From contig LPNY01000209.1 in NCBI GenBank assembly GCA_001655195.1, forward strand, positions 1-64,000: 64,000 nucleotides of DNA. The letters run 5' to 3'. Each line of letters begins with the position of its first letter. The first letter of the stretch is position 1. Made by a program: the position numbers and the translations under genes. The notes below the pieces were generated by a model that was not told the origin of the DNA, searched no databases, and was given only the letters and a program-made list of their open reading frames with translations. Positions 27,386 to 39,702 of the stretch are shown here, in pieces. This DNA is from Arcobacter sp. EP1. GTDB lineage: Bacteria > Campylobacterota > Campylobacteria > Campylobacterales > Arcobacteraceae.

Positions 27386-27411
27386 AGGTTAAGGTTTTGG
27401 CCTTAATCTTT
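27384..27411. terminator. Bidirectional terminator between fldA and fur
   Basis: An 11-bp stem, AAAGGTTAAGG / CCTTAATCTTT (one G-U in one direction), lies between the convergent fldA and fur genes and reaches the fur stop codon. Confidence 0.7.
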
Positions 27412-27850
27412 AATCTTGACAATCTCCACATGTTCCATACAGTTGCATTGAGTGGCTTGTAATTTTAAATTTATTTTTCTTAGCAATTCGATCTTGGCGT
27501 TTTTCAATTTCATCATCTAAAAATTCAACAATCTTACCACATGAAGTACAAATTAGATGATCGTGATGTTCTTTTTGATTACTTTCATACTTTTTACCAT
27601 CTGCACCAAAAGTAATAGAAGTAATTAAATTAACCTCTTCTAGAAAACCTAAAGCACGGTAAACAGTTGCAATTCCTACATTAGATTCTGGGTGTTTTGT
27701 TTTAATCTCATTATAGACTTCTTCAGCACTTAAATGCCCATCAGCATTCATAAGAATCTTTAAGACAATTTCTCGTTGTTCAGTATATTTGAGACCTTTT
27801 TGTTTAACAATTTTCTTTAGTTCTTCAATTGTATCTTCGTTTGTTGACAT
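27410..27850 (-). CDS. fur: Ferric uptake regulator Fur
   Basis: A 146-residue Fur. The N-terminal winged helix includes GLKYTEQREIVLKIL and GIATVYRALGFLEE. The dimer/metal domain has EHHDHLICTSCGKIVEF with the HHDH and CTSC ligands, and the second zinc pair is CGDC at the C terminus. The segment ITSITFGADGKKYES and the GTCGDC ending resemble C. jejuni Fur much more than PerR. It is monocistronic, convergent with fldA, and its promoter shows no evident Fur box. It presumably reads the many palindromic boxes between 19.6 and 47 kb. Confidence 0.93.
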   Translation of the reverse strand: MSTNEDTIEELKKIVKQKGLKYTEQREIVLKILMNADGHLSAEEVYNEIKTKHPESNVGIATVYRALGFLEEVNLITSITFGADGKKYESNQKEHHDHLICTSCGKIVEFLDDEIEKRQDRIAKKNKFKITSHSMQLYGTCGDCQD

Positions 27851-27959: not shown

Positions 27960-28178
27960 CTAATTTTCGGCTGTTTGAGTTTTAACTTGAGTTTTTTTGG
28001 TAGGTTGGTAAAGCATATGATGCCATAAAGCAAAACCACAAAAGGCAACACCTGCACCAATATGTACTTTTTTAGCAATTTTATTTTTCATAAACATTGA
28101 GGTAACAACTGTTGCACCTAAGGTGGCAGTCATTCCAATTTTAGCGGCTTCTTTTTGTACTTCTAAATCAAGTGACAT
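27960..28178 (-). CDS. Small membrane protein of the ferrosome-like region
   Basis: A 72-residue protein with two hydrophobic segments (residues about 13-29, GMTATLGATVVTSMFM; and 38-53, VHIGAGVAFCGFALWHH), a His-His pair at the end of helix 2 and a polar Thr/Lys/Gln tail. GGAAAGAGAG precedes the ATG. The gene overlaps the upstream 39-residue gene by 11 bp, and both follow Fur boxes, so they form a small iron-regulated unit beside the P-type ATPase operon. A role in the same membrane system is inferred from position. Confidence 0.7.
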   Translation of the reverse strand: MSLDLEVQKEAAKIGMTATLGATVVTSMFMKNKIAKKVHIGAGVAFCGFALWHHMLYQPTKKTQVKTQTAEN

Positions 28179-28287
28179 ATCTCTCTTTCCTTTTTTTTCG
28201 TTTTTGCATCTTTTTTACAGTGCCACCAACTGTTTTAACAGTGAGTGCTGCAGTTAATACGGTTGCAAGAGGTAATAGTATTGGCAT
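28168..28287 (-). CDS. 39-residue membrane microprotein of the ferrosome-like region
   Basis: A frame of 39 codons beginning MPILLPLATVLTAALTVK and ending in a strongly basic tail (KKMQKRKKRKERYVT). One hydrophobic helix followed by positive charge suggests an inner-membrane peptide with a cytoplasmic tail. AAGGA lies six bases before the ATG, and a Fur box begins twelve bases further upstream. It overlaps the 72-residue gene by 11 bp. Confidence 0.6.
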   Translation of the reverse strand: MPILLPLATVLTAALTVKTVGGTVKKMQKRKKRKERYVT

Positions 28288-28298
28288 AGTTATCCTTC

Positions 28299-28361
28299 TG
28301 ATAATAATTATCACTATTCTAACAGAAAACCCTTAAATAGAACTGATAATTATTATCATAG
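28299..28361 (-). promoter_or_regulatory. Two Fur boxes before the two small membrane genes
   Basis: CTGATAATAATTATCACTAT at about 28298-28317 and CTGATAATTATTATCATAG at 28343-28361 are both Fur-type palindromes. They lie between the ATPase gene's stop and the start of the 39-residue gene and are oriented to control the latter. Confidence 0.75.
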
Positions 28362-28369
28362 ATATACTA

Positions 28370-30475
28370 CTACTTTACCTTTACGCCTTTAATGGAATTT
28401 AGTAACAATCCAATGGTTGTACCATTATGTAATACTGCTGTTACAATTGGTGAGAACAAACCAAAAGTTGCTCCTGCTAAAATAACTGAGTTAATACCAA
28501 CTGTAGCATTAAAATTAGAGTTAATTAAACTCATTGTGTTTTTTGCTAACTCTTTTGCTTCTACTACTGCTGCAATATCATCTTTTAGTAGGCTCACATC
28601 TGCTGTTGCTTTAGCAATATCCGCACCTCTACTCATAGAGATACCAACATGTGCAGAAATCAGGGCAGGTGCATCATTAATACCATCACCAACAAAAGCA
28701 ACTTTACGTCCCTCTTCCATCATCTCTTTAACAATACGGGCTTTATCTTTAGGCAATAGTTGTGCTTTGATTTCATCGATACCTAGTTCATTAGCAATCA
28801 TTTCTGCTTTCTTTTGAGTATCGCCAGTTAACATAACAATATTTTTCACCCCTAACTCTTTTAATCGAGCAATAGACTCTTTGGCATTATGGCGCAAGTC
28901 ATCCGCTAAACCAATAGTCCCTAATAGTTTCCCATCAAACCCAATATAGAGCAATGTTTTTCCATTATCAAGGGATTTATTTATTTTATCTTTATGCTGC
29001 GAAAAATCAATTTTTTCATCATCTTCTAAAAAATGCCTGCTTCCAATAACTACAGATTTTCCATCAACTTCAGTTTTCACACCATGAGCAACAATAAACT
29101 CAACCTCTTCGTGGTGCATATGCACAAAACCTTTTTGTTTTGCCGCTTTTACAACAGCTTCAGCAACAGGATGGAAATAGTGCTCTTCTGTAGAAGCTGT
29201 TAAATTAAGTACATCTTCTTCACTCCACTCTTCATCATATGACTCTACAGAGATAACTTCTAATTCACCAGAAGTTAACGTACCCGTTTTATCAAAAATA
29301 AAAGTATCTGCTGAATTCAAGGCTTCAATAGATTTTGCCCCTTTTATCATAACTCCTTGATGACCCGCTTTTGAAATCGTTGATTTAAACGCAACGGGAG
29401 TCGCAAGTTTTAAAGCACAGGAATAATCCGCTTGTAAAATAGAAGCAACCCGTTCAAAGTCTCGTTTGACCACATAAGATAAGCCAGCTAATCCAAGCGT
29501 AACTGGTACTAACTTATCAGCTAACTTTGTTGCTTTTAACTGTACTGATGATTTTTCATTTAACGAATTTTCAATATAGTGTTTGATACGTTGGGTTGCT
29601 GTATCTGCACCAACATGTTCCGCCCAAATTTTTAAACGTCCCTCTTCAATCACTGTTCCAGAAATAACTCTATCACCACGAGTTTTAGCAACAGGTTCAG
29701 CTTCACCTGTCATAGAGACTTGGTTAACACTCGCATTTCCATCCATGATGTGTCCATCCACAGGTATTGTACTTCCTGCACCAACAACAACAATATCGCC
29801 AATTTGAATCTCTTCAGTGTTAACTAGAACCTCAACAAGCTTTCCATCTTGCTCTTTTTCTATCCAAGCTTCTTTAACGTTGGGTTTTGATAACTCTTTA
29901 AGTAAATCATCACTTTTATGTACAGTAGTTTCTTCGATATATTCACCCAGTTCTAACATAGCATTTGTTGAGTTTGCTGCTAAATAATCTTTACGATAAA
30001 TAGAAATTCCAACAGCAGCACTCTCTAGTACTTTTGAGGTTAAACCCTCTTCAAAAAGCTCTTTTGTTCCATCAATTAGCATAGGAGCAGCAGCGGTTGT
30101 TGTTAATGTTGCTTTTAATAAATCATTTTGAATAAAACGCTCACTAACTAATGCTGAACTCGCCCGAACAATTCCAGAAATACTTGGTTCCTCATCACTC
30201 ACACATGATACACACACAGCTGCATCTTGACAGTTACTTAAAAGTTCATCTTTTGTTAAATTACCTAGTATTGATTCAATCTTAGCAGTGATATCTTCAC
30301 TAAATGTAAAAATAATACTTGATGCTTTTTTATTGATTCGTACACTGGTTACACATTCAATCTTTTCTAAATGCGTTTTTAAAATATTCACATCTAAAAA
30401 TTCATCTTTTAGTAACTCGTATTTATAACGAGCACGAAAAGGAGTTCCATGTACTTTTTTAAACAATTTGCTCAT
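28370..30475 (-). CDS. P1B-type metal-transporting ATPase, ferrosome FezB-like (P1B-6)
   Basis: A 701-residue P-type ATPase. The phosphorylation site is FDKTGTLTSG near residue 394, the actuator motif is TGEAEP, and the hinge is GDGINDAPAL near residue 597. The transmembrane metal motif is DYSCALKLATP near residue 349; an SCA motif instead of CPC/CPH/SPC is, to my knowledge, the mark of the P1B-6 group that includes FezB of ferrosomes. The N-terminal metal-binding-like domain has no CxxC; in its place stands GTPFRARYKY, an arginine motif. The next domain carries CQDAAVCVSCVSD, a cysteine-rich stretch. It is the last gene of a six-gene operon of membrane and iron-binding proteins. Iron transport into a vesicle is inferred from family and context. 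Confidence 0.85.
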   Translation of the reverse strand: MSKLFKKVHGTPFRARYKYELLKDEFLDVNILKTHLEKIECVTSVRINKKASSIIFTFSEDITAKIESILGNLTKDELLSNCQDAAVCVSCVSDEEPSISGIVRASSALVSERFIQNDLLKATLTTTAAAPMLIDGTKELFEEGLTSKVLESAAVGISIYRKDYLAANSTNAMLELGEYIEETTVHKSDDLLKELSKPNVKEAWIEKEQDGKLVEVLVNTEEIQIGDIVVVGAGSTIPVDGHIMDGNASVNQVSMTGEAEPVAKTRGDRVISGTVIEEGRLKIWAEHVGADTATQRIKHYIENSLNEKSSVQLKATKLADKLVPVTLGLAGLSYVVKRDFERVASILQADYSCALKLATPVAFKSTISKAGHQGVMIKGAKSIEALNSADTFIFDKTGTLTSGELEVISVESYDEEWSEEDVLNLTASTEEHYFHPVAEAVVKAAKQKGFVHMHHEEVEFIVAHGVKTEVDGKSVVIGSRHFLEDDEKIDFSQHKDKINKSLDNGKTLLYIGFDGKLLGTIGLADDLRHNAKESIARLKELGVKNIVMLTGDTQKKAEMIANELGIDEIKAQLLPKDKARIVKEMMEEGRKVAFVGDGINDAPALISAHVGISMSRGADIAKATADVSLLKDDIAAVVEAKELAKNTMSLINSNFNATVGINSVILAGATFGLFSPIVTAVLHNGTTIGLLLNSIKGVKVK

Positions 30476-30813
30476 TATGACTCTTGATTTGCTTCCATTT
30501 GCGCTCGAGCATCTTCATATCGTTCTTTTAACTCTTCCATTCCAGCTTGAAAAAGTTCAGTACCTTTTGATGCCGCCTTCATAAGTGTCTCTTGAGCACC
30601 TTTGTTCGTTAAAAGAAAGGTAACAGCTGCTCCAATTAAAGCACCTTTAACAAAATCACCATTATTAAATCCATTTTGCCCAGCATTTTGATTAGGGTTC
30701 ATTTGTTGTGACGGATTAACATTTTGATTAATATAAGGGTTATGATTCATATTAATGTTTTGTCCGTTTTGAACTCGACTGTTTTCAATATTCATATCGT
30801 ATTGGTTATTCAT
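30475..30813 (-). CDS. Asn/Gln-rich small protein with glycine-zipper membrane segment
   Basis: A 112-residue protein. The first ~50 residues are low in complexity and very rich in Asn, Gln, Met and Pro (NPSQQMNPNQNAGQNGFNNG). A short YtxH-like hydrophobic segment follows (FVKGALIGAAVTFLLTN, with small-residue spacing), then an amphipathic helix rich in Glu and Lys. It overlaps the ATPase gene by 1 bp and the previous gene by 8 bp. Such architecture suits a membrane-shaping or scaffold protein of an intracellular compartment; this is inference. Confidence 0.72.
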   Translation of the reverse strand: MNNQYDMNIENSRVQNGQNINMNHNPYINQNVNPSQQMNPNQNAGQNGFNNGDFVKGALIGAAVTFLLTNKGAQETLMKAASKGTELFQAGMEELKERYEDARAQMEANQES

Positions 30814-31177
30814 TATTTTCCTCTTCTAATAATACTTTATCTTCACATGAAAGAGCTTCATATTTTGCACTTAAGGTTTCATCGATAACTTCTAACGCAT
30901 AAATACCCGCCATACCAACAGAGGCTGCTGTTAATGCTTTAAAAAGACCACCTTTTTGTCCCAAGTAATTAGCAGTAGCAATTGCTGCACCTGTTGCAAT
31001 AGCACCTTGAGAAGTACGTTTTACGGTATCTTTAACTGCTTCATTTTGTGATATTTCTTCATCTTTTACACGCTTATAGTTGATTGTTCCAGAGACAATA
31101 GCACTAGCAACTGCTCCACTAACAATATGACCTAAAACATTTCGTGGTTCACCAGTATTGATTAAAGGTTGTTTCAT
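30806..31177 (-). CDS. Glycine/alanine-rich membrane protein of the ferrosome-like operon
   Basis: A 123-residue protein with three Gly/Ala-rich hydrophobic stretches (LGHIVSGAVASAIVSGTI; SQGAIATGAAIATANYLG; FKALTAASVGMAGIYALEV) separated by charged turns, and an acidic tail. The small-residue spacing resembles magnetosome MamC-like and ferrosome small membrane proteins. It overlaps both neighbouring genes by a few bases, so it is co-translated with them. The specific role is unknown. Confidence 0.7.
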   Translation of the reverse strand: MKQPLINTGEPRNVLGHIVSGAVASAIVSGTINYKRVKDEEISQNEAVKDTVKRTSQGAIATGAAIATANYLGQKGGLFKALTAASVGMAGIYALEVIDETLSAKYEALSCEDKVLLEEENNE

Positions 31178-31440
31178 TATTCTTCTTCTTTCTTACTTTC
31201 TATTACTTCAGCCTCTTGGGATGCAGTTTTCTCTTTTTTCTCTTTTATACACTCAGCAGTTGCACTTAACGTCTCTTTTACGTCAGTTACTGTGTCATTT
31301 GCTTTTTCTAATGAACAGTTTGCCAAATCTTTTGACTTATCAAAAAGTCCACCTGCCATCTCTTTTAACTTGTCACTTTTTTGAAATGCAACAACAGCTC
31401 CTGCTCCAACTGCTAATCCTAATACAAATGGTAATGCCAT
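31177..31440 (-). CDS. YtxH-like single-helix protein of the ferrosome-like operon
   Basis: An 87-residue protein. An N-terminal glycine-rich helix (LPFVLGLAVGAGAVVAFQ) is followed by a long charged amphipathic helix (about residues 22-75) and a Glu/Lys tail. This is the plan of YtxH-type membrane-anchored coiled proteins. It lies between the ferritin-like and the MamC-like genes with 3-bp and 1-bp junctions. An anchoring or shaping role at the compartment membrane is an inference. Confidence 0.7.
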   Translation of the reverse strand: MALPFVLGLAVGAGAVVAFQKSDKLKEMAGGLFDKSKDLANCSLEKANDTVTDVKETLSATAECIKEKKEKTASQEAEVIESKKEEE

Positions 31441-31443
31441 AAT

Positions 31444-32151
31444 TTACTCCTCGTTTTGATTTTCACTATTTTCGGTTTTTTTATTCATGTAACTATTTAA
31501 AAATGCAACGGATGCACTTCCAAACGCTGCACCACTCAACGTTGAAATATTTAGTTTTGAAAATATTTGGGTTAATTTATCTTGGTCAACATTTCCAGCC
31601 ATAATATCATCTAAAAGCATTTGATATTCACCAAACTTCTCCATAATATTCTCTTGGTTGAAGTCAAAACCTGCTTCATGAGTATTTTGTCCACTATAGT
31701 AGTTTGATACACAGCGTCTGAAAGCCGGCAAATGATTGTTAAAAGACGCTGCTTGAAGTTTAAACAACGTATCTCTTACATCATCCTCGGTGACATATTG
31801 CAAAAGATGATCATACATCGCTATGTTATTAATCTCACTTGCAACTCCTAATTCACAACACTCTACATAACTCTTAGGGACTTCTATTTTGTTTGCCCAA
31901 TCATTAATAGGAACCGGAACATTATACTTTTGAAGCAGTGGTATCAGTGCCGCATAATGTATCGCTTCAGCCTCCTTGATACTAACAAAAGGTTGCACAT
32001 ATCCAAAAGATTCAATAATCTTGCTATATGTTTCATAAGCTTTGAATTCATCATATACTGCAATTTGTAATACCTGATGTAAAATTGGCTGTTCACTTTG
32101 TTCATTAACTCTTTGAGTCACCAATATTTGCTCATTGTAATTCATTTCCAA
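31444..32151 (-). CDS. Ferritin-like DUF2202 protein with C-terminal hydrophobic segment
   Basis: About 235 residues. The N-terminal ~150 residues match the ferritin-like DUF2202 four-helix domain. Carboxylate and histidine ligands appear in DEFKAYETY (Glu near 35), KEAEAIHYAAL (Glu 62 and His 65, an ExxH pair), SEINNIAMYD and NNHLPAFRRC. The C terminus adds a small-residue hydrophobic stretch (TLSGAAFGSASVAFLNSY) and an Asn/Glu tail, which could dock the protein to a membrane. I chose the TTG at 32151 because AGGAGG lies nine bases before it; the ATG at 32145 is too far from that site. It lies in an operon with a FezB-like ATPase and may load or oxidise iron for the compartment. Confidence 0.82.
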   Translation of the reverse strand: MEMNYNEQILVTQRVNEQSEQPILHQVLQIAVYDEFKAYETYSKIIESFGYVQPFVSIKEAEAIHYAALIPLLQKYNVPVPINDWANKIEVPKSYVECCELGVASEINNIAMYDHLLQYVTEDDVRDTLFKLQAASFNNHLPAFRRCVSNYYSGQNTHEAGFDFNQENIMEKFGEYQMLLDDIMAGNVDQDKLTQIFSKLNISTLSGAAFGSASVAFLNSYMNKKTENSENQNEE

Positions 32152-32152
32152 T

Positions 32153-32467
32153 CTATACAACCTCCTTTGCTAAATTATTAATTAGTTGTGTTAGTTCATC
32201 TAAGTTTTCATGTTTTACCAAATCTTCCCACAATTGAGGTGCAAAAATTTTTGGGTCATACATAATTGTAACCGAGGCAATCATTTTTTTAATAGTAATA
32301 CTTTTAATTCCCTCAATACGTTGCTGTAAACTCTCAATATCTGCCAAACCAATACTTCCACTAGCCTCTTTTATTTTTGGACTAACACGAACACGTAAGC
32401 GTCCTGGAGTATGGGCAATAATAGTAAAATAGCTTGCGATTTTTATAATATCTTCTGTTGTAATCAA
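32153..32467 (-). CDS. Stand-alone degenerate HMA-like protein with arginine motif
   Basis: A 104-residue protein. After a short hydrophobic stretch (IIKIASYFTIIAH) comes HTPGRLRVRVSPK, an arginine-rich motif where a heavy-metal-associated domain would carry MxCxxC. The following alternation (IESLQQRIEGIKSITIKKMIASVTIMYDP) matches the babbab fold of HMA domains. The ATPase of the same operon has a similar arginine motif at its own N terminus. It is the first gene of the operon and starts with TTG preceded by AAAGGA at six bases. Ferrosome systems are known for such arginine-bearing domains; binding an anionic iron-phosphate phase is my inference. Confidence 0.78.
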   Translation of the reverse strand: MITTEDIIKIASYFTIIAHTPGRLRVRVSPKIKEASGSIGLADIESLQQRIEGIKSITIKKMIASVTIMYDPKIFAPQLWEDLVKHENLDELTQLINNLAKEVV

Positions 32468-32632
32468 CTATTGTCCTTTATATTTTGTATTTTTTCCGAC
32501 TTCTTCTTAATTCTAACTTATTCTAAATTCAGACTCATTATCAAAATTTTATTTTAGTTTTTGAATTTAAAAATAGTCTATTTAAAACTATAAGAATATG
32601 TTATATTGGCATTATAAAGGTTTTTTCTTTAG

Positions 32633-32743
32633 AATGATATTAATTATCACTATAATATTGACAAAATAGTGACATTGTTACTAAGCAACTCTTTATATAG
32701 CCTATATTATCATGTCAAAAATACATTGATAATAATTATCACT
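32633..32743. promoter_or_regulatory. Divergent Fur-box region between the ferrosome-like operon and feoAB
   Basis: AATGATATTAATTATCACT (32633-32651) and ATTGATAATAATTATCACT (32725-32743) lie in the 293-bp divergent spacer. The second is 17 bases before the feoA start, and the first is placed to serve the minus-strand operon. A common iron control of iron import and storage is inferred. Confidence 0.78.
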
Positions 32744-32760
32744 TTATATGAGGAAGACGT

Positions 32761-32985
32761 TTGAAATTAAATGAATTGCATAAAGGCAATAGTGGAACAA
32801 TTAAAAAAATTCACGCAGATAAAACACTCAAATCTCGATTTAACTCTTTTGGTATTACCAAAGGTCAAAAGATAACCGTGGAAGAAATCACTCTAGCAAA
32901 AGAGACCATTGAAATTAAGATTGGTAGAACAAAAATAGCACTTCGCGTTTCAGAAGCTCAAAATATTGAGGTCGAAGCATGCTAG
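32761..32985 (+). CDS. feoA: Ferrous iron transport protein A
   Basis: A 74-residue FeoA, the small SH3-like cytosolic partner of FeoB. The standard N terminus KLNELHKGNSGTIKKIHAD, the RFNSFGITKGQ segment and the final ALRVSEAQNIEV are all present. The start is a TTG; the nearby ATG is out of frame, and AGGAAG precedes the TTG. It overlaps feoB by 7 bp and has a Fur box immediately upstream. Confidence 0.93.
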   Translation: MKLNELHKGNSGTIKKIHADKTLKSRFNSFGITKGQKITVEEITLAKETIEIKIGRTKIALRVSEAQNIEVEAC

Positions 32986-35105
32986 GAGCAACAAACTTTA
33001 AAGAAGAAAAAATCATTAAAATTGCCCTAGTTGGGCAACCAAATGTTGGTAAATCAATGCTTATTAATTCTATTGGAAATGCCCGACTAAAAGTTGGAAA
33101 TTTTTCAGGGGTTACGGTTGAGAAAAAACAAATCACCTTTAAACATAATGAATATAAATTTTTAGTGACCGATTTACCAGGTTCTTACTCTCTTAATGAT
33201 TACACCCTAGAAGAAAAAGTTACCAAAGAGTATCTAGAAAATGAAAACTACGACATCATCCTTAATGTTGTAGACTCAACAAATTTAGAGCGAAATCTCT
33301 ATTTAACATCAGAACTTTTAGCTCTTGATAAAAAAATGGTTGTTGCACTAAATATGATAGATGAAGCGAATAATGAAGGCATCTCAATTGATGAAAAACA
33401 AGTGAGTAAACTATTAGGAAAACCGTGTGTTAAAACATCTGCAAAAGATAATTTAGGAATTGACAAACTTCTTACTGCACTTGTTTCAAAATATGAATCT
33501 CCTAAATTAGAATCCAAATTGATCTTTTCAGATGTAATCGAAGAAGAGATAGCCCATATTTCTAAACTACTTAATGCAAAAAAATATAAAAGCAATGTAG
33601 ACTATCGAGAAATTGCCATTAAACTCTTACAAGAGGATAAAGCAACCTACTTAAAATTTCATGATGAACCTATTTGGATAGAGTTACAGCCACTCTTATC
33701 CCATGCCCTCAATCATATCTATATTCACTATGATACAAAAGATTTAGAAGAGATCTTTAGTGATGAAAAACACGCTTTTTCAAAGGGAATTGTTACTGAA
33801 ACCGTTAAAACAAAAACTGAACAACAAAAAGATTTAACCTCAAAAATTGATTCTATTTTGATTCATAAGTTTTTTGGTATCCCTATTTTTCTATTTTTTA
33901 TGTGGTCACTTTTTCAACTCACCTTTGAGCTTGGAAATATCCCTATGGATATGATTGATGCATTCTTTGCAAATCTTATTGATGGTACAAAAAATATTTT
34001 AGGTGACAATGAACTCTCTTCTATGATCGCAGATGGTGCCATTGCTGGTGTTGGAGCAGTTGTTCTATTTGTTCCTAACATTGTTATTCTATTCTTTGGT
34101 ATTGCCCTACTTGAAACCACAGGATATATGAGCCGGGTTGCTTTTTTACTGGATGGTTTTTTTCACAAGTTTGGCCTACATGGTAAATCGTTTATTCCAC
34201 TAGTATCAGGATTTGGGTGTTCAGTTCCAGCTTATATGGCTGCACGAACATTAAAAAATGAAAAAGATAGACTCTTAACTCTTTTTATTATTGGTTTTAT
34301 GAGTTGTGGAGCAAGACTTCCTATTTATGTTCTTTTTACCGGGGCATTTTTTGAAGCTGACCAAGCAGGAAATATTCTATTTCTTATCTATATTGGTGGA
34401 GCTATTTTAGGATTAATTGCAGCAAAAGTACTTAAGGTTATGGTCTTTAAAAATGAAGATGAACCTTTTGTAATGGAGATGCCAAAATATCGACTTCCAT
34501 CTACTAAACTTATTTGGCACACAGTATCTAACTCAGCGTGGATGTATTTACGAAAAGCGGGTACTTTTATTTTGGCTGCTTCTATTTTAATTTGGATTGC
34601 AAGTAACTACCCAAAACAACTTGAGTATGAAGAAACAATGTCTGTAAAAATGGAACAACTTTCAACTGATGAAGAAAAGGCAGCATTAGAAAATGAGATT
34701 GCCCTTTATGGTTTAGAAAACTCGTACCTTGGAAAACTAGGTAAATTTTCAGAGCCACTTTTTGCACCATTAGGATTTGACTGGAAAATGGCAGTTGCAT
34801 TAGAAACAGGTCTTGCCGCAAAAGAAATTGTTGTATCAACATTAGGAATACTCTATGGCTTAGGAGAAGAACACGATGAAGCAAGTGATACCTTAATTGA
34901 AAAAATCAAAAACAATATTCCACTACCAGCTGCGATTTCATTTATCGTATTTGTTATGATTTATCTACCATGTTTAGCAGCATCAATGGTCTTTATGAGA
35001 GAAGCTGGCGGAGCTAAATACTTAGGTTACCTTTTTGTCTTTACAACAGGAACAGCATGGGTTCTGTCATTTATTGCTTACAACATCACAAAACTATTGA
35101 TGTAA
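32979..35105 (+). CDS. feoB: Ferrous iron transporter FeoB
   Basis: A 708-residue inner-membrane Fe(II) transporter. The N-terminal G domain carries G1 GQPNVGKSM (near residue 19), G2 FSGVTVEK, G3 DLPGSY and G4 NMIDE. The C-terminal half has two gate regions with the conserved cysteines in SGFGCSVPAYMAARTL and GFMSCGARLPIYV, followed by further helices. Length is slightly under E. coli FeoB and typical of Campylobacterota. It overlaps feoA; no feoC is seen. A strong hairpin terminator follows. Confidence 0.96.
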   Translation: MLGATNFKEEKIIKIALVGQPNVGKSMLINSIGNARLKVGNFSGVTVEKKQITFKHNEYKFLVTDLPGSYSLNDYTLEEKVTKEYLENENYDIILNVVDSTNLERNLYLTSELLALDKKMVVALNMIDEANNEGISIDEKQVSKLLGKPCVKTSAKDNLGIDKLLTALVSKYESPKLESKLIFSDVIEEEIAHISKLLNAKKYKSNVDYREIAIKLLQEDKATYLKFHDEPIWIELQPLLSHALNHIYIHYDTKDLEEIFSDEKHAFSKGIVTETVKTKTEQQKDLTSKIDSILIHKFFGIPIFLFFMWSLFQLTFELGNIPMDMIDAFFANLIDGTKNILGDNELSSMIADGAIAGVGAVVLFVPNIVILFFGIALLETTGYMSRVAFLLDGFFHKFGLHGKSFIPLVSGFGCSVPAYMAARTLKNEKDRLLTLFIIGFMSCGARLPIYVLFTGAFFEADQAGNILFLIYIGGAILGLIAAKVLKVMVFKNEDEPFVMEMPKYRLPSTKLIWHTVSNSAWMYLRKAGTFILAASILIWIASNYPKQLEYEETMSVKMEQLSTDEEKAALENEIALYGLENSYLGKLGKFSEPLFAPLGFDWKMAVALETGLAAKEIVVSTLGILYGLGEEHDEASDTLIEKIKNNIPLPAAISFIVFVMIYLPCLAASMVFMREAGGAKYLGYLFVFTTGTAWVLSFIAYNITKLLM

Positions 35106-35153: not shown

Positions 35154-35195
35154 CTAATAACTAATAACTAATAACTAATAACTAATAACTAATAA
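35154..35195. repeat. Six perfect tandem copies of a 7-base unit (CTAATAA)
   Basis: Six uninterrupted CTAATAA units. The repeat runs into the 3' end of the second fur-like gene, whose TAG stop lies in the last unit, so on the minus strand the unit (TTATTAG) begins at the stop and continues downstream. A seven-base unit changes frame when copies are lost or gained, but here it lies at or after the stop codon. Confidence 0.9.
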
Positions 35196-35635
35196 CAATC
35201 TTCACATAAACCATATATGGTCATAACATGATCTTTTAGTTCAAAGTTATGAGATTGTGCAACTTTAATTTGTTGCTCTTCGATTAATTCATCAGTAAAC
35301 TCAATAATTTTATGGCAATTGGTACAAACCATATGATCATGATGTAATGAAAGGTTTAATTCATACCGTTTAACACCATCACCTACATCAAGTGAATTGA
35401 TGATATTCATCTCTTCAAAGAATTTAACCGTCCGATAAACCGTTGCAATACCAACTTCAATATTATAATCACTCTTTACACTGTGTGCAATTTGTTCAGC
35501 AGAGAGATGCTCTTTTGACAAATATAAAATTTTTAAAATATAATCTTTTTGAATAGAGTTTTTAAAACCCAATCGTGATACATGTTCTTTAAAATTTTTT
35601 AAAAAACTATCAAATCCTGCTTCATAATTATCCAA
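35189..35635 (-). CDS. Second Fur-family regulator
   Basis: A 148-residue Fur-family repressor. The winged helix includes GIATVYRTVKFFEE, and the metal sites are HHDHMVCTNCHKIIEF and CEDC at the C terminus. It differs from the fur gene at 27410 by a longer N terminus (MDNYEAGFDSFLKNF) and by SLDVGDGVKRYEL in place of ITFGADGKKYE. The start is TTG with AAGGAG seven bases upstream. It overlaps by 8 bp a 48-residue membrane protein gene whose promoter has Fur boxes. It could be Fur-like, Zur-like or PerR-like; sequence alone does not decide. Confidence 0.85.
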   Translation of the reverse strand: MDNYEAGFDSFLKNFKEHVSRLGFKNSIQKDYILKILYLSKEHLSAEQIAHSVKSDYNIEVGIATVYRTVKFFEEMNIINSLDVGDGVKRYELNLSLHHDHMVCTNCHKIIEFTDELIEEQQIKVAQSHNFELKDHVMTIYGLCEDCY

Positions 35636-36336: not shown

Positions 36337-39300
36337 TTATTTACTAAACTCTTTAATAATTTTTTCTAATTCAACTACAGGAGGATTTGGAAGTTGTGGG
36401 TATGCTTTTTGAACGGCACTTGTCACCCATTGTGGATAGATTCTAAAGTTTAACTTTACTGTTGCGCTTAAAGGATATTGTAGTTCTTCGCCTTCTTGTA
36501 CTTGTATAGCATAAGACTCTACTCTTCGTTCACCTGAAGCAATTCTAGTATCACTTAGCAGTTTTTCATATCGCCAAAAAAGTAAGCCAACAGGTTTTCC
36601 ATCTTTATCTCCAAAGACTTTCATGAAAGGTCTGGCATCTTCAGCAAGATTTCCATCCTTTTTTAGTTTTCCTGATTCAAAGACAACTTTACCATTTCTA
36701 TCTTTTACTGTGATATCAAGCCACAACTCTCTAAAATCAGCGACTCCAGTTGGTAAATGGTGCCCTGCTCCAACATTTTTTACACCAACATCTATTTTAG
36801 TTCCTATAATATTAACATCCAGTTGGGCTGATGTTCGTAATAATTGTAGAGTTTGGTCTTCATGCTCTTTATTTTTAAGTCCCGATAAAAAGTGATTTGA
36901 GCCTGCAAAGTAGTGAACTTTTACATCCCCTTTAATTTTTCCACCTGTTGTTGAACGTCCACGCAATGGTGATAACTTATCATCTTTTAAATAAGTCATG
37001 TGACAATCAATACACGATTTATGCTTACTTGGATCACTTGGATTATTAAACTCGGATTCTTGCCACTCTTTAAATGTCGATACTATCTTGCTTCCACTTC
37101 CAGGGGTAAACTCATCATGACACGAAGCACAATAGACACTATCTTTATAGACAGGTTTCATATAACTATCCAAGTGCGCTTTTGGTTTTGAGTTAATAAA
37201 CTTTTCACTTAACCATTGGGCTGCATCATTATTTGTATCTTCAAACACATATTTTTGACGCTCTGTTAAATTTAAAGTATACGCAGCATTTCCACCAGCA
37301 TCTTCAATTTTTGTGATACGATGGCAGGCAACACACGATACACCCTCCTCTAGTTTTGCATTTCCATGTACTTTTAACTCATTGATGAGCGTCTTAGCAC
37401 CACTTTCAAAAAACTTATCCATTGTAGGTGTTGTTTTATCTACAAGACCTGTTGTAATTGCACTTGGATTATGACATCCCATACACCATTTTCTAAACTC
37501 TTCCCCTTCAACTTTTGCTGCTAATCCTTCAACCACTAAATAATAAGGATTAGTTCCCACCAAGTTTTTATGGTTTGAATCAGCCCATTGATTAAAAATC
37601 TCTTCATGACACGATTTACATTTTGCAGAGTTTGTCCAATCTTCAACATGGTATTTATCCACATCATCTTCAAGTTTAATCCAGTTTGATAAATAACGTA
37701 AGTTCTCTTTTGCCATAACATACTCATGCAAGGCTTCCATATTCTCTTTTAATTTAGGACTCATTTTTTCTGGATTGGCTAAAGGAAGTTCTGCTTTTTC
37801 ATCAGCTCCCATACCCCCTTGGGTATCTCTAGAAATTCTTACATAATCTGATAGTGGTGACTTTGAAATATAACCTTTATCTACATTATCATGCCCAATA
37901 CTTACATCTTTGTGTTTATCAAGCTTTGTATCTGCAAATAAAAATCCATTAGTAAAATTAAACCCTTCAAAATGACATGAATTACAGCTCATCCAAAAAT
38001 CACCTACCATCGGTATGTCTTTATAAGTATTAGTATTACCATTATTAAATAAAGTCTTACCCAATCTAAGTTTTTTAAATAGTGGGTCTTTTTGAACTAC
38101 TTTAGAAAAAGAGTCTTTTTCCACAGTAACCCTTGCAAAAGGATGACTTCCTCCACTATTCAGCAGTGTCATATCAAGTCGCGCCGCATTTTGAACATAA
38201 ATATTGTCATTTTTAGGATGGGTAATAAGTGCTTGTGGGTTTGTTCCATTTGGATAAGCTCTTAATATTTGTGTTACTTTAGCCCCTTTTCCAGCTCTTT
38301 TTCCTCTTTTTCTATGTCGTTTTTTCTTAGCATTTCCCGTACTTCTTCCAATATTAAAAACCATAATATCTTCACTACCTGCTAAGGTTACAAATGCTTT
38401 TCTTCCATCATTTGAAAAGGCTAAATCCCAAGGGTTTGAAACAATCATCGTTCGGTTATTATTATCTTGAATATTAATAGATTTAAACAGATGTTTTCTT
38501 TTTTGTTCTAACTCTTTTTCAACACCTCTTTCCAAAGAAAGTACTGAAACAGTTGGGAAAACAGTTGATTGAAACTGGAAAGCATGGTCAAAATTCCATA
38601 AAACATGAGGTAACCATGCCTCTTTTCCATCAGGTTTTATCTCAATATCATCAAGAAGTCTTGGTTTTCCTTGAGAGACAAATTCATCATCATTTTGTGT
38701 TGAATGTAACGTTATAGTTTTAAGTCGTGCCAAACTTCTAGCATCATAAATAGATACCATACCAATCATAGCATGGGAAACGAGTAACCGTCCATCATCT
38801 GTTAAAGCTAATCCTCGTGGTGTTTTAGCTGTTTTGACTTTGTTTAAAACTTCAAAACTTGTATCATCAATAACCCAAAGCTCATTATCTTCATAAATAG
38901 TTACAAAAAAGTATTTGTTTTTTTCATCGTAAACAATTGCATGGGGTCGATTTTTTGTTTTGATTGTTTTAATAATTGCATTTTGTGTATTTAAAAAATG
39001 AACTTGATTTTTCATAAAATCCGTCACCCCATAAACTGACTCATCACTTTTAAATGCAATTCTTCGAATATCAGTTCCTAAAACCTTTTCAAATACTTTT
39101 TCACCAGTAATTGCATCAGTTTTAGTAACACTTCCCCCATCTAAATTTGCACTATAAATATATTTTGTATCTTTTGTTAAATAAAGTGCCGAACTGCTTT
39201 GACTTGAATGGGATAGCGTAGGAATTAAAATAGTTAAAAGTGTAGCGCTTGCCAATACAGTTTGTTTTTTGAGCCGATACTCTTTTGCTTTTTTCTTTCG

Positions 39301-39702
39301 TCGTATATTTGCGTTTGAAAACATTGAATGATACCACAAGAAAAAAAGCAGTAAAAAAGAGCCATAAAGATGAATATTAAATGAATAAACACCCCACTCA
39401 TCTCCACCTCTATTTCCTAAAAAGAAAAGATAAAATCCACTGATTGTAATCAATAGTAGGGTAACTCCTAGGAACATTCCATTACCACTATTTCTTCTTT
39501 TTGCAACAATATTTTTTCTGTATTTATAGGTATGCATATTCACAAAAGGTATAATTAATACCACTGAAACTAGTATTGAACTAATAATATGTACCGCTTG
39601 TAAAAGTGCAAAGTACTCCCACTGAATACCTAAAATATCCCACTGTAAAATACCAGTAATAAACATAATAATAATTGAAATTTCAATATAAATTGTCTTC
39701 AT
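36337..39702 (-). CDS. Membrane-anchored beta-propeller multihaem cytochrome c
   Basis: A 1121-residue fusion. The first ~160 residues hold four membrane helices with histidines placed like a b-type cytochrome (LLQAVHIISS, FNIHLYGSF, LWYHSMF). A YVTN-type beta-propeller occupies about residues 170-520. The rest contains six CxxCH haem-c sites: CNSCH near 572, CKSCH near 697, CMGCH near 742, CVACH near 791, CASCH near 858 and CIDCH near 898. A C-terminal beta domain follows with the GAGHHLPTG motif seen in cytochrome c554-like proteins. It would carry electrons from the quinone pool or membrane to periplasmic partners. The epimerase gene lies 6 bp upstream, perhaps in the same transcript. The substrate is unknown. 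Confidence 0.85.
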   Translation of the reverse strand: MKTIYIEISIIIMFITGILQWDILGIQWEYFALLQAVHIISSILVSVVLIIPFVNMHTYKYRKNIVAKRRNSGNGMFLGVTLLLITISGFYLFFLGNRGGDEWGVYSFNIHLYGSFLLLFFLWYHSMFSNANIRRKKKAKEYRLKKQTVLASATLLTILIPTLSHSSQSSSALYLTKDTKYIYSANLDGGSVTKTDAITGEKVFEKVLGTDIRRIAFKSDESVYGVTDFMKNQVHFLNTQNAIIKTIKTKNRPHAIVYDEKNKYFFVTIYEDNELWVIDDTSFEVLNKVKTAKTPRGLALTDDGRLLVSHAMIGMVSIYDARSLARLKTITLHSTQNDDEFVSQGKPRLLDDIEIKPDGKEAWLPHVLWNFDHAFQFQSTVFPTVSVLSLERGVEKELEQKRKHLFKSINIQDNNNRTMIVSNPWDLAFSNDGRKAFVTLAGSEDIMVFNIGRSTGNAKKKRHRKRGKRAGKGAKVTQILRAYPNGTNPQALITHPKNDNIYVQNAARLDMTLLNSGGSHPFARVTVEKDSFSKVVQKDPLFKKLRLGKTLFNNGNTNTYKDIPMVGDFWMSCNSCHFEGFNFTNGFLFADTKLDKHKDVSIGHDNVDKGYISKSPLSDYVRISRDTQGGMGADEKAELPLANPEKMSPKLKENMEALHEYVMAKENLRYLSNWIKLEDDVDKYHVEDWTNSAKCKSCHEEIFNQWADSNHKNLVGTNPYYLVVEGLAAKVEGEEFRKWCMGCHNPSAITTGLVDKTTPTMDKFFESGAKTLINELKVHGNAKLEEGVSCVACHRITKIEDAGGNAAYTLNLTERQKYVFEDTNNDAAQWLSEKFINSKPKAHLDSYMKPVYKDSVYCASCHDEFTPGSGSKIVSTFKEWQESEFNNPSDPSKHKSCIDCHMTYLKDDKLSPLRGRSTTGGKIKGDVKVHYFAGSNHFLSGLKNKEHEDQTLQLLRTSAQLDVNIIGTKIDVGVKNVGAGHHLPTGVADFRELWLDITVKDRNGKVVFESGKLKKDGNLAEDARPFMKVFGDKDGKPVGLLFWRYEKLLSDTRIASGERRVESYAIQVQEGEELQYPLSATVKLNFRIYPQWVTSAVQKAYPQLPNPPVVELEKIIKEFSK

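Follow-up and report, generated by a model that had tools for sequence, protein, structure and literature searches.

A Fur-box-flanked locus beside feoAB in Arcobacter sp. EP1 as a probable Campylobacterota variant of the ferrosome (fez) system

Experimental evidence of ferrosomes comes from very few bacteria. An arginine motif in place of CxxC is a trait of the ferrosome ATPase, and Grant et al. 2022 reportedly describe a six-gene fez operon in Shewanella putrefaciens. In the alphaproteobacterium Rhodopseudomonas palustris, ferrosomes are made from the six genes RPA2333-2338 (PMC12016538). Desulfovibrio magneticus accumulates them on passing from limiting to replete iron (PMC12748827), and in Clostridioides difficile the ferrosome genes are repressed by Fur (PMC12574912). 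The HN motif is a hallmark of P1B6 ATPases (PMC9374683), while FezC is a DUF4405-like protein that binds haem b (PMC11334425). Whether other pathogens or commensals have ferrosomes is a question raised in a recent review (PMC12574912).

The locus described here lies in a 64,000-nucleotide stretch of the Arcobacter sp. EP1 genome, hereafter the window. An initial annotation had placed six overlapping genes and a nearby two-gene unit of small membrane proteins back to back with feoAB, and every one of these genes was recovered where it had been placed (Table 1). The minus strand from 28370 to 32467 is a tight six-gene operon, divergent from feoAB, while S48 and C72 form a separate unit (27960-28287, minus strand) whose two products each contain a hydrophobic segment, as had been proposed. 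The number of six genes stands; their overlap does so for some pairs (1-8 nt), the others being separated by gaps of 3-7 nt. The ferritin-like protein, Fer238, probably starts at ATG 32145 rather than at TTG 32160, in which case its gene abuts that of the HMA-like protein without overlap. Profile searches agree with the degenerate HMA, DUF2202 ferritin-like, MamC-like and P1B ATPase identities given in the initial annotation, and yield only a weak match for the YtxH-like one. Hydropathy analysis places hydrophobic segments in the YtxH-like, MamC-like and N/Q-rich proteins and at the C-terminus of Fer238 as well as in S48 and C72.

Table 1. Genes and Fur boxes of the locus and its surroundings (window coordinates)
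Feature	Coordinates	Strand	Basis
HMA_2-like small protein, 104 aa, first operon gene	32153..32467	-	PF19991 E 2.6e-5
Fer238, ferritin-like bundle with C-terminal glycine-rich membrane segment	31444..32160	-	DUF2202 and Rubrerythrin profiles; AF2; Foldseek
YtxH-like small protein, 87 aa	31177..31440	-	PF12732 E 0.11, weak; hydropathy
MamC-like two-helix hairpin, 123 aa	30806..31177	-	NCBIfam MamC E 8.1e-8
N/Q-rich glycine-zipper protein NQ112, 112 aa	30475..30813	-	alignment; kept in 74/74 loci
P1B-6-type ATPase (FezB-like), 701 aa	28370..30475	-	TM4/TM6 motifs, tree
S48, single-helix peptide, 39 aa from ATG 28287; ORF reaches GTG 28314	28168..28287	-	translation, hydropathy
C72, two-helix protein, 72 aa, DUF4405/FezC-like putative haem protein	27960..28178	-	invariant H39 and H53; hhalign
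feoA, divergent ferrous-iron uptake operon	32761..32985	+	FeoA E 1.7e-19
feoB	32979..35105	+	translation
Fur-family regulator, directly downstream of S48-C72 unit	27410..27850	-	PF01475 E 1e-42
Second Fur-family regulator, downstream of feoB	35189..35635	-	PF01475 E 2.4e-33
Fur box 14/14, between -10-like element and S48-C72 start codon	28299..28313	.	
Second Fur box 14/14, upstream of S48-C72 promoter	28344..28358	.	
Fur box 11/14 of six-gene operon, next to -10-like element	32529..32543	.	conserved position -72 to -76
Fur box 13/14, divergent intergenic region	32635..32649	.	
Fur box 14/14 of feoA	32727..32741	.	

The TM4 segment of the ATPase reads DYSCALKLATPVAFK, with the core DYSCALKLATP (SCA, SC-type) and no CPC, and its TM6 contains LHNGTTIGLL, which carries the HN signature. 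By these SC and HN signatures the enzyme is of the P1B-6 type. Its N-terminal HMA-like domain is devoid of CxxC and contains H9, R14 and R16, which are found in at least 95% of 39 ATPases. Phylogenetic position was assessed with a maximum-likelihood tree of 43 P1B ATPases, 24 of them fez-type, in which the references were Cu (CopA) and Zn (ZntA) transporters, with no Mn exporter among the rows. The 24 fez-type ATPases form one clade (support 100/99), and the clade of the window ATPase includes those of similarly built operons from Azospirillum, Cereibacter, Vibrio and one further genome. Branching with Cu or Zn exporters, the outcome that would have spoken against a ferrosome, was not observed: E. 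coli CopA and ZntA are separated from the window ATPase (support 97/89), and the host's two other P1B ATPases also stand apart. The nearest sequences outside the fez-type clade are P1B-6 ATPases of Deinococcus (with a DUF6110 partner), Gloeothece and Fusobacterium, followed by a CtpC-like ATPase of Rhodococcus; the branching order there is unsure because several of these rows are long branches. A search of the PDB with the ATPase returned generic P-type pumps only, and three of 369 sampled genomes from the class of G104 match it at E 1e-95. Belonging to the P1B-6 class is by itself no proof of an organelle, since such ATPases are also found beside other partners, such as DUF6110 in Deinococcus.

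In many Campylobacterota, but not in the window, a second P1B ATPase (about 700-746 aa) is encoded immediately upstream of the HMA-like gene, usually between that gene and a Fur-family gene. It is found at L054:3540-5720 and L062:3881-6052, as similar ORFs in loci L055, L056, L059, L104 and L106, and further in L108, L110, L122, L127, L128, L131 and L133. All six representatives examined have SCPC in TM4, and these six form a clade of their own (100/100).

Fer238 is 238 residues long as called, probably 233. Its match to the DUF2202/rubrerythrin-like superfamily has an E-value of 0.011 for the protein alone, and 21 of its 31 relatives match (best 1.2e-7). AF2 predicts a four-helix bundle, with a pLDDT of about 98 over the bundle, and the closest structures are MJ0754 and the bacterioferritins (Foldseek, 3q4n, E 4.5e-6; profile against MJ0754, E 1.3e-7). 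Alignment indicates that E38, E65xxH68, E109 and H143 are kept, which amounts to five of the six canonical ligand positions; the helix-D glutamate is absent, so that the di-iron site lacks one of its six ligands (E, ExxH, E, ExxH). E109 is invariant among the 31 relatives, while the ExxH and H143 have been lost in several lineages. Loss of the helix B and helix D ligands from a gene and an operon that are themselves kept means that catalysis by this domain is not the conserved function. Fer238 shares its predicted four-helix bundle with the superfamily of MJ0754 (PDB 3q4n) but differs from it in the missing helix-D glutamate, in the disappearance of ligands from some lineages and in a glycine-rich C-terminal membrane segment, placed by hydropathy at about residues 203-221. 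Apart from this locus, the host encodes a conventional ferritin and a protein resembling rubrerythrin; iron storage is therefore not an empty niche in this organism, and a fez-type store would be a second one. The host ferritin gene is apparently split, and as the stored sequence contains a run of N, no inference was drawn from this.

The first protein of the operon carries the motif HTPGRLRVR (PGRLRVR) in place of CxxC, and its score against PF19991 (24.6 bits) is below the Pfam cut-off of 30. The YtxH-like protein consists of one N-terminal membrane helix and a charged helical tail; in the N/Q-rich protein a single glycine-zipper membrane helix, KGALIGA..FLLTN, is combined with a conserved EELKERYEDA tail. 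Neither DUF1490 nor DUF6110 matched any of the operon proteins, and DUF6110 was therefore discarded as the family of the small partners.

The MamC-like protein has a charged loop, containing E46 and D50, between its two membrane helices. In MamC, E66 and D70 are loop residues with E-x3-D spacing (PMC6584501, PMC7604359). The acidic pair of the window protein, the putative counterpart, has the same spacing but is only partly conserved in the family: position 46 is E or D in 20 of 35 relatives and position 50 is D in 11 of 35. The score against NCBIfam MamC is 32.5 bits, and 25 of the 35 relatives match that model (best 6.3e-10). As the equivalog cut-off of the model is 100 bits, far above this score, the protein is related to MamC without being an equivalog. 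No significant match to this family was found in the PDB.

C72 appears to be a DUF4405/FezC-like putative haem protein. Among 32 relatives A12, K13, H39 and H53 are invariant, and the step of 14 residues from H39 to H53 is also that of the histidines in the DUF4405 proteins of the family. Matches of the relatives to PF14358 are weak (26/32, best 0.0027), and the hhalign probability for C72 against DUF4405, 68%, is below the usual threshold, with a P of 4.7e-5 against 0.026-0.64 for controls (n=4). The AlphaFold model, a monomer computed from an alignment that excluded the plasmid rows from outside the Campylobacterota, shows two helices at moderate confidence. Homologues of C72 with a long C-terminal extension occur at L054:10213-10839, L062:10193-10843, L104:8868-9506 and L116:9639-10214, and four members of the C72 alignment match the SpoIIAA-like PF11964 (best E 1.2e-19).

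The ATPase is present in 64 of 104 Arcobacteraceae genomes at E 1e-100 or better (61/88 genomes of good quality; 14/20 genera). For the phylum, with the threshold at E 1e-130, the count is 135 of 397 genomes (28 of 68 genera). When used to search contigs the ATPase returned Campylobacterota and some MAGs labelled otherwise. Gene order was read with profiles made from the proteins of the window together with related ones. The operon's order recurs at every locus where it was read; it was recovered in Arcobacteraceae, Sulfurospirillum, a Sulfurovum-labelled MAG, Helicobacter sp. 15-1451 and numerous other genera of the order. Such conservation shows that the arrangement is not due to chance. The HMA-like gene is found in 74 of 80 loci with the ATPase; these 74 contain the N/Q-rich gene in 74 cases, the MamC-like in 70, the YtxH-like in 66, Fer238 in 63, C72 in 57 and S48 in 42, all of which are lower bounds, as some contigs end early and small genes diverge. 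Within the flanking sequence retrieved, 12 of 74 other loci have a FeoB-like ORF, and 42 of 74 have a Fur-family ORF nearby.

Several loci depart from this pattern or lie on unusual replicons. Three genomes of family f6 (G831, G590 and G484; loci L120, L125 and L126) have a reduced version that retains the HMA-like, small single-helix, hairpin and zipper genes, has no ferritin-like gene and encodes an N-terminally shorter ATPase without the HMA-like domain. In G354 (L086) the frame of a fez-type ATPase adjoining the end of feoB is interrupted, with residues 8-542 in one frame and the rest in another, which reflects a sequencing error or decay. The whole operon, S48 and C72 included, is carried by a 133-kb plasmid (L084; CP129951.1, 128912-133388) of an Arcobacter strain obtained from chicken meat, and an integrase is encoded close by; on a second Arcobacter plasmid, CP134847.1, the ATPase match begins only at residue 83.

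Similar operons were found outside the phylum on plasmid records of Azospirillum brasilense, Cereibacter azotoformans and Vibrio sp. THAF190c, whose ATPases are 48%, 43% and 39% identical to that of the window, respectively. Profiles from which those organisms had been excluded recognised in all three operons the N/Q-type protein (E 3e-13 to 5e-19), the HMA-like protein (E 3e-7 to 4e-14) and the MamC-like protein (E 1e-4 to 5e-11), the E-values applying to a small ORF set. The Azospirillum operon has six genes, the ATPase gene being the last, and the C72 sequence corresponds to the C-terminal part of its HMA2 protein, with both histidines kept. Genome G476 shows the same plan adjoining feoA and feoB. 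No ferritin-like domain is found in any of these four operons. In its stead, the Cereibacter, Vibrio and G476 operons encode a low-complexity segment followed by a membrane tail, FWKGAxxGAAA, that resembles the N/Q protein and, weakly, the C-terminus of Fer238 (E 1e-4, Cereibacter); Azospirillum has no such gene. Given its lack in the four outside operons, the ferritin-like domain seems to have been either added or retained in the lineage of the Campylobacterota. It is also present in two MAGs labelled Gammaproteobacteria (L053, L070), the ATPases of which are about two thirds identical to that of the window; these operons may be transfers or belong to misfiled MAGs. A plasmid search with the Vibrio N/Q-type protein retrieved only the protein itself.

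Fur boxes had been predicted between the units, and the three perfect matches and the 13/14 match of Table 1 confirm this, the chance expectation being 0.13 sites of 13/14 or better per 64 kb. The S48-C72 promoter is bracketed by two perfect boxes, one of them placed after a -10-like element and before the ribosome-binding site. Fur-box-like sites scoring at least 12/14 precede S48 in 30 of 44 loci (0.45 expected under a Markov null) and the HMA-like gene in 27 of 74 (1.05 expected), mostly at -72 to -76; as the loci are related, these counts are not independent. The geometry of the boxes at both promoters suggests repression by Fur with iron. Fur control of both units, with induction by iron starvation, is predicted from the motifs, the presence of a box being no proof of repression as Fur can also activate. 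Every one of the window's twelve Fur-box-like sites scoring 13/14 or higher falls within 19612-42960, an iron-regulated island that contains feoAB, the two Fur-family genes and genes for a flavodoxin, a porin and NnrS. Many of the promoters contain, downstream of the Fur box, an ATAAG followed by a TTAAG-like element, perhaps the site of a second regulator; it lies at 32480-32530 in the window and ahead of the HMA-like gene in L033, L042, L052 and L066. Downstream of the second Fur gene, 36337-39702 encodes a protein of 1121 aa whose N-terminal region is hydrophobic and contains histidines and whose C-terminal part is of multihaem cytochrome type (Cytochrome_C554, C7).

Taken together, these features make it probable that the locus encodes a ferrosome-like iron-storage compartment. 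The best reading is that it is a Campylobacterota variant of the fez system, its membership being judged from motifs, gene plan and tree position among accessible P1B-6 ATPases. The likeness in plan to ferrosome clusters, noted at the outset, is upheld by the P1B-6 motifs, by the apparent FezC/DUF4405 resemblance of C72 and by the similar plan, less the ferritin part, in Proteobacteria. The suggestion that the accessory set marks a variant likewise gains from the ferritin-like domain in the second gene and from C72 lying in a separate Fur-box unit.

A scheme of how such a compartment might work can be drawn. Under iron scarcity Fur would release both units together with feoAB, as the conserved boxes suggest. 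The glycine-zipper proteins and the MamC-like hairpin would then assemble with the P1B-6 ATPase on a membrane vesicle, the zippers shaping the membrane. On the return of iron, FeoB would bring Fe(II) into the cytosol and the ATPase would pump iron into the vesicle lumen, the arginine-type HMA domains and the anchored ferritin-like domain binding it or handing it over at the cytosolic side, while the MamC-like loop may contact the mineral. By analogy with FezC, C72, probably a haem-binding dimer, would pass electrons across the vesicle membrane, and this transfer would let stored iron be oxidised for storage or reduced for release.

The same genes could instead specify a Fur-controlled metal transport complex of the ordinary cytoplasmic membrane, without any organelle, in which iron or another metal is exported by the ATPase into the periplasm, with the small proteins as an efflux platform of the PacL/CtpC kind. 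Such platforms can indeed be built from single-helix partners of P1B-6-like ATPases, as PacL/CtpC shows (PMC9374683), and some P1B-6 ATPases outside fez operons have DUF6110 partners. The window ATPase, however, has no CPC, its operon lacks a DUF1490 or DUF6110 match, and ferritin-like, MamC-like and DUF4405-like proteins are encoded alongside it. Moreover, the conserved Fur boxes at the promoters predict expression in starvation, when export makes little sense. An exporter is unexpected under such conditions, while a compartment that receives returning iron fits the reported ferrosomes, which favours the storage reading; a mere transport complex is therefore considered unlikely.

A module for iron detoxification or redox protection would make other use of the parts: the ferritin-like and haem proteins would deal with Fe(II), oxygen or peroxide, while surplus iron would be removed by the ATPase whenever Feo overshoots. 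The rubrerythrin and DUF2202 similarity of Fer238, its five ligand positions in the window and the linkage to feoAB are what one would expect of such a module. Against it, the ligands of helices B and D have disappeared in several lineages that keep the gene and the operon, and the Fur boxes fit starvation induction, rather than iron overload or efflux, so that I regard this explanation as very improbable. Returning to the ferrosome reading, an extended form of it would posit a ferrosome lineage throughout the Campylobacterota, with a membrane-tethered ferritin-like protein, a MamC homologue that shapes or nucleates the mineral and a MamC-type ancestor common to ferrosomes and magnetosomes; this extension is speculative and, as a whole, rather doubtful.

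If the operon makes ferrosomes, a large part of the Campylobacterota, food-isolated lineages included, would store iron in membrane compartments. The MamC-like protein would then connect ferrosomes with magnetosomes in a way that can be tested, and through the ferritin-like domain with its membrane anchor the two known bacterial ways of storing iron would be united in one operon.

Among the described systems, CtpC with PacL (DUF1490) and the P1B-6 ATPases with DUF6110 share with the present locus a P1B-6-like ATPase, the HN of TM6 and a single-helix partner. They differ from it in the partner families and, for CtpC, in the CPC of TM4, and the sampled ATPases of the CtpC and DUF6110 types fall outside the fez clade. 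The D. magneticus fezABC and C. difficile fez clusters, likened to it by gene plan and motifs, combine a P1B-6 ATPase with a small membrane protein, and their FezC is DUF4405-like, as C72 appears to be (PMC11334425); the present locus has more accessory genes. In gene plan, the fez operons of R. palustris and S. putrefaciens resemble it in their small membrane proteins, P1B-6 ATPase and association with iron starvation, and they comprise six genes, like the Azospirillum operon. In contrast to these operons, the Arcobacter locus has a ferritin-like domain in its second gene and a DUF4405-like protein in a separate unit with its own Fur boxes.
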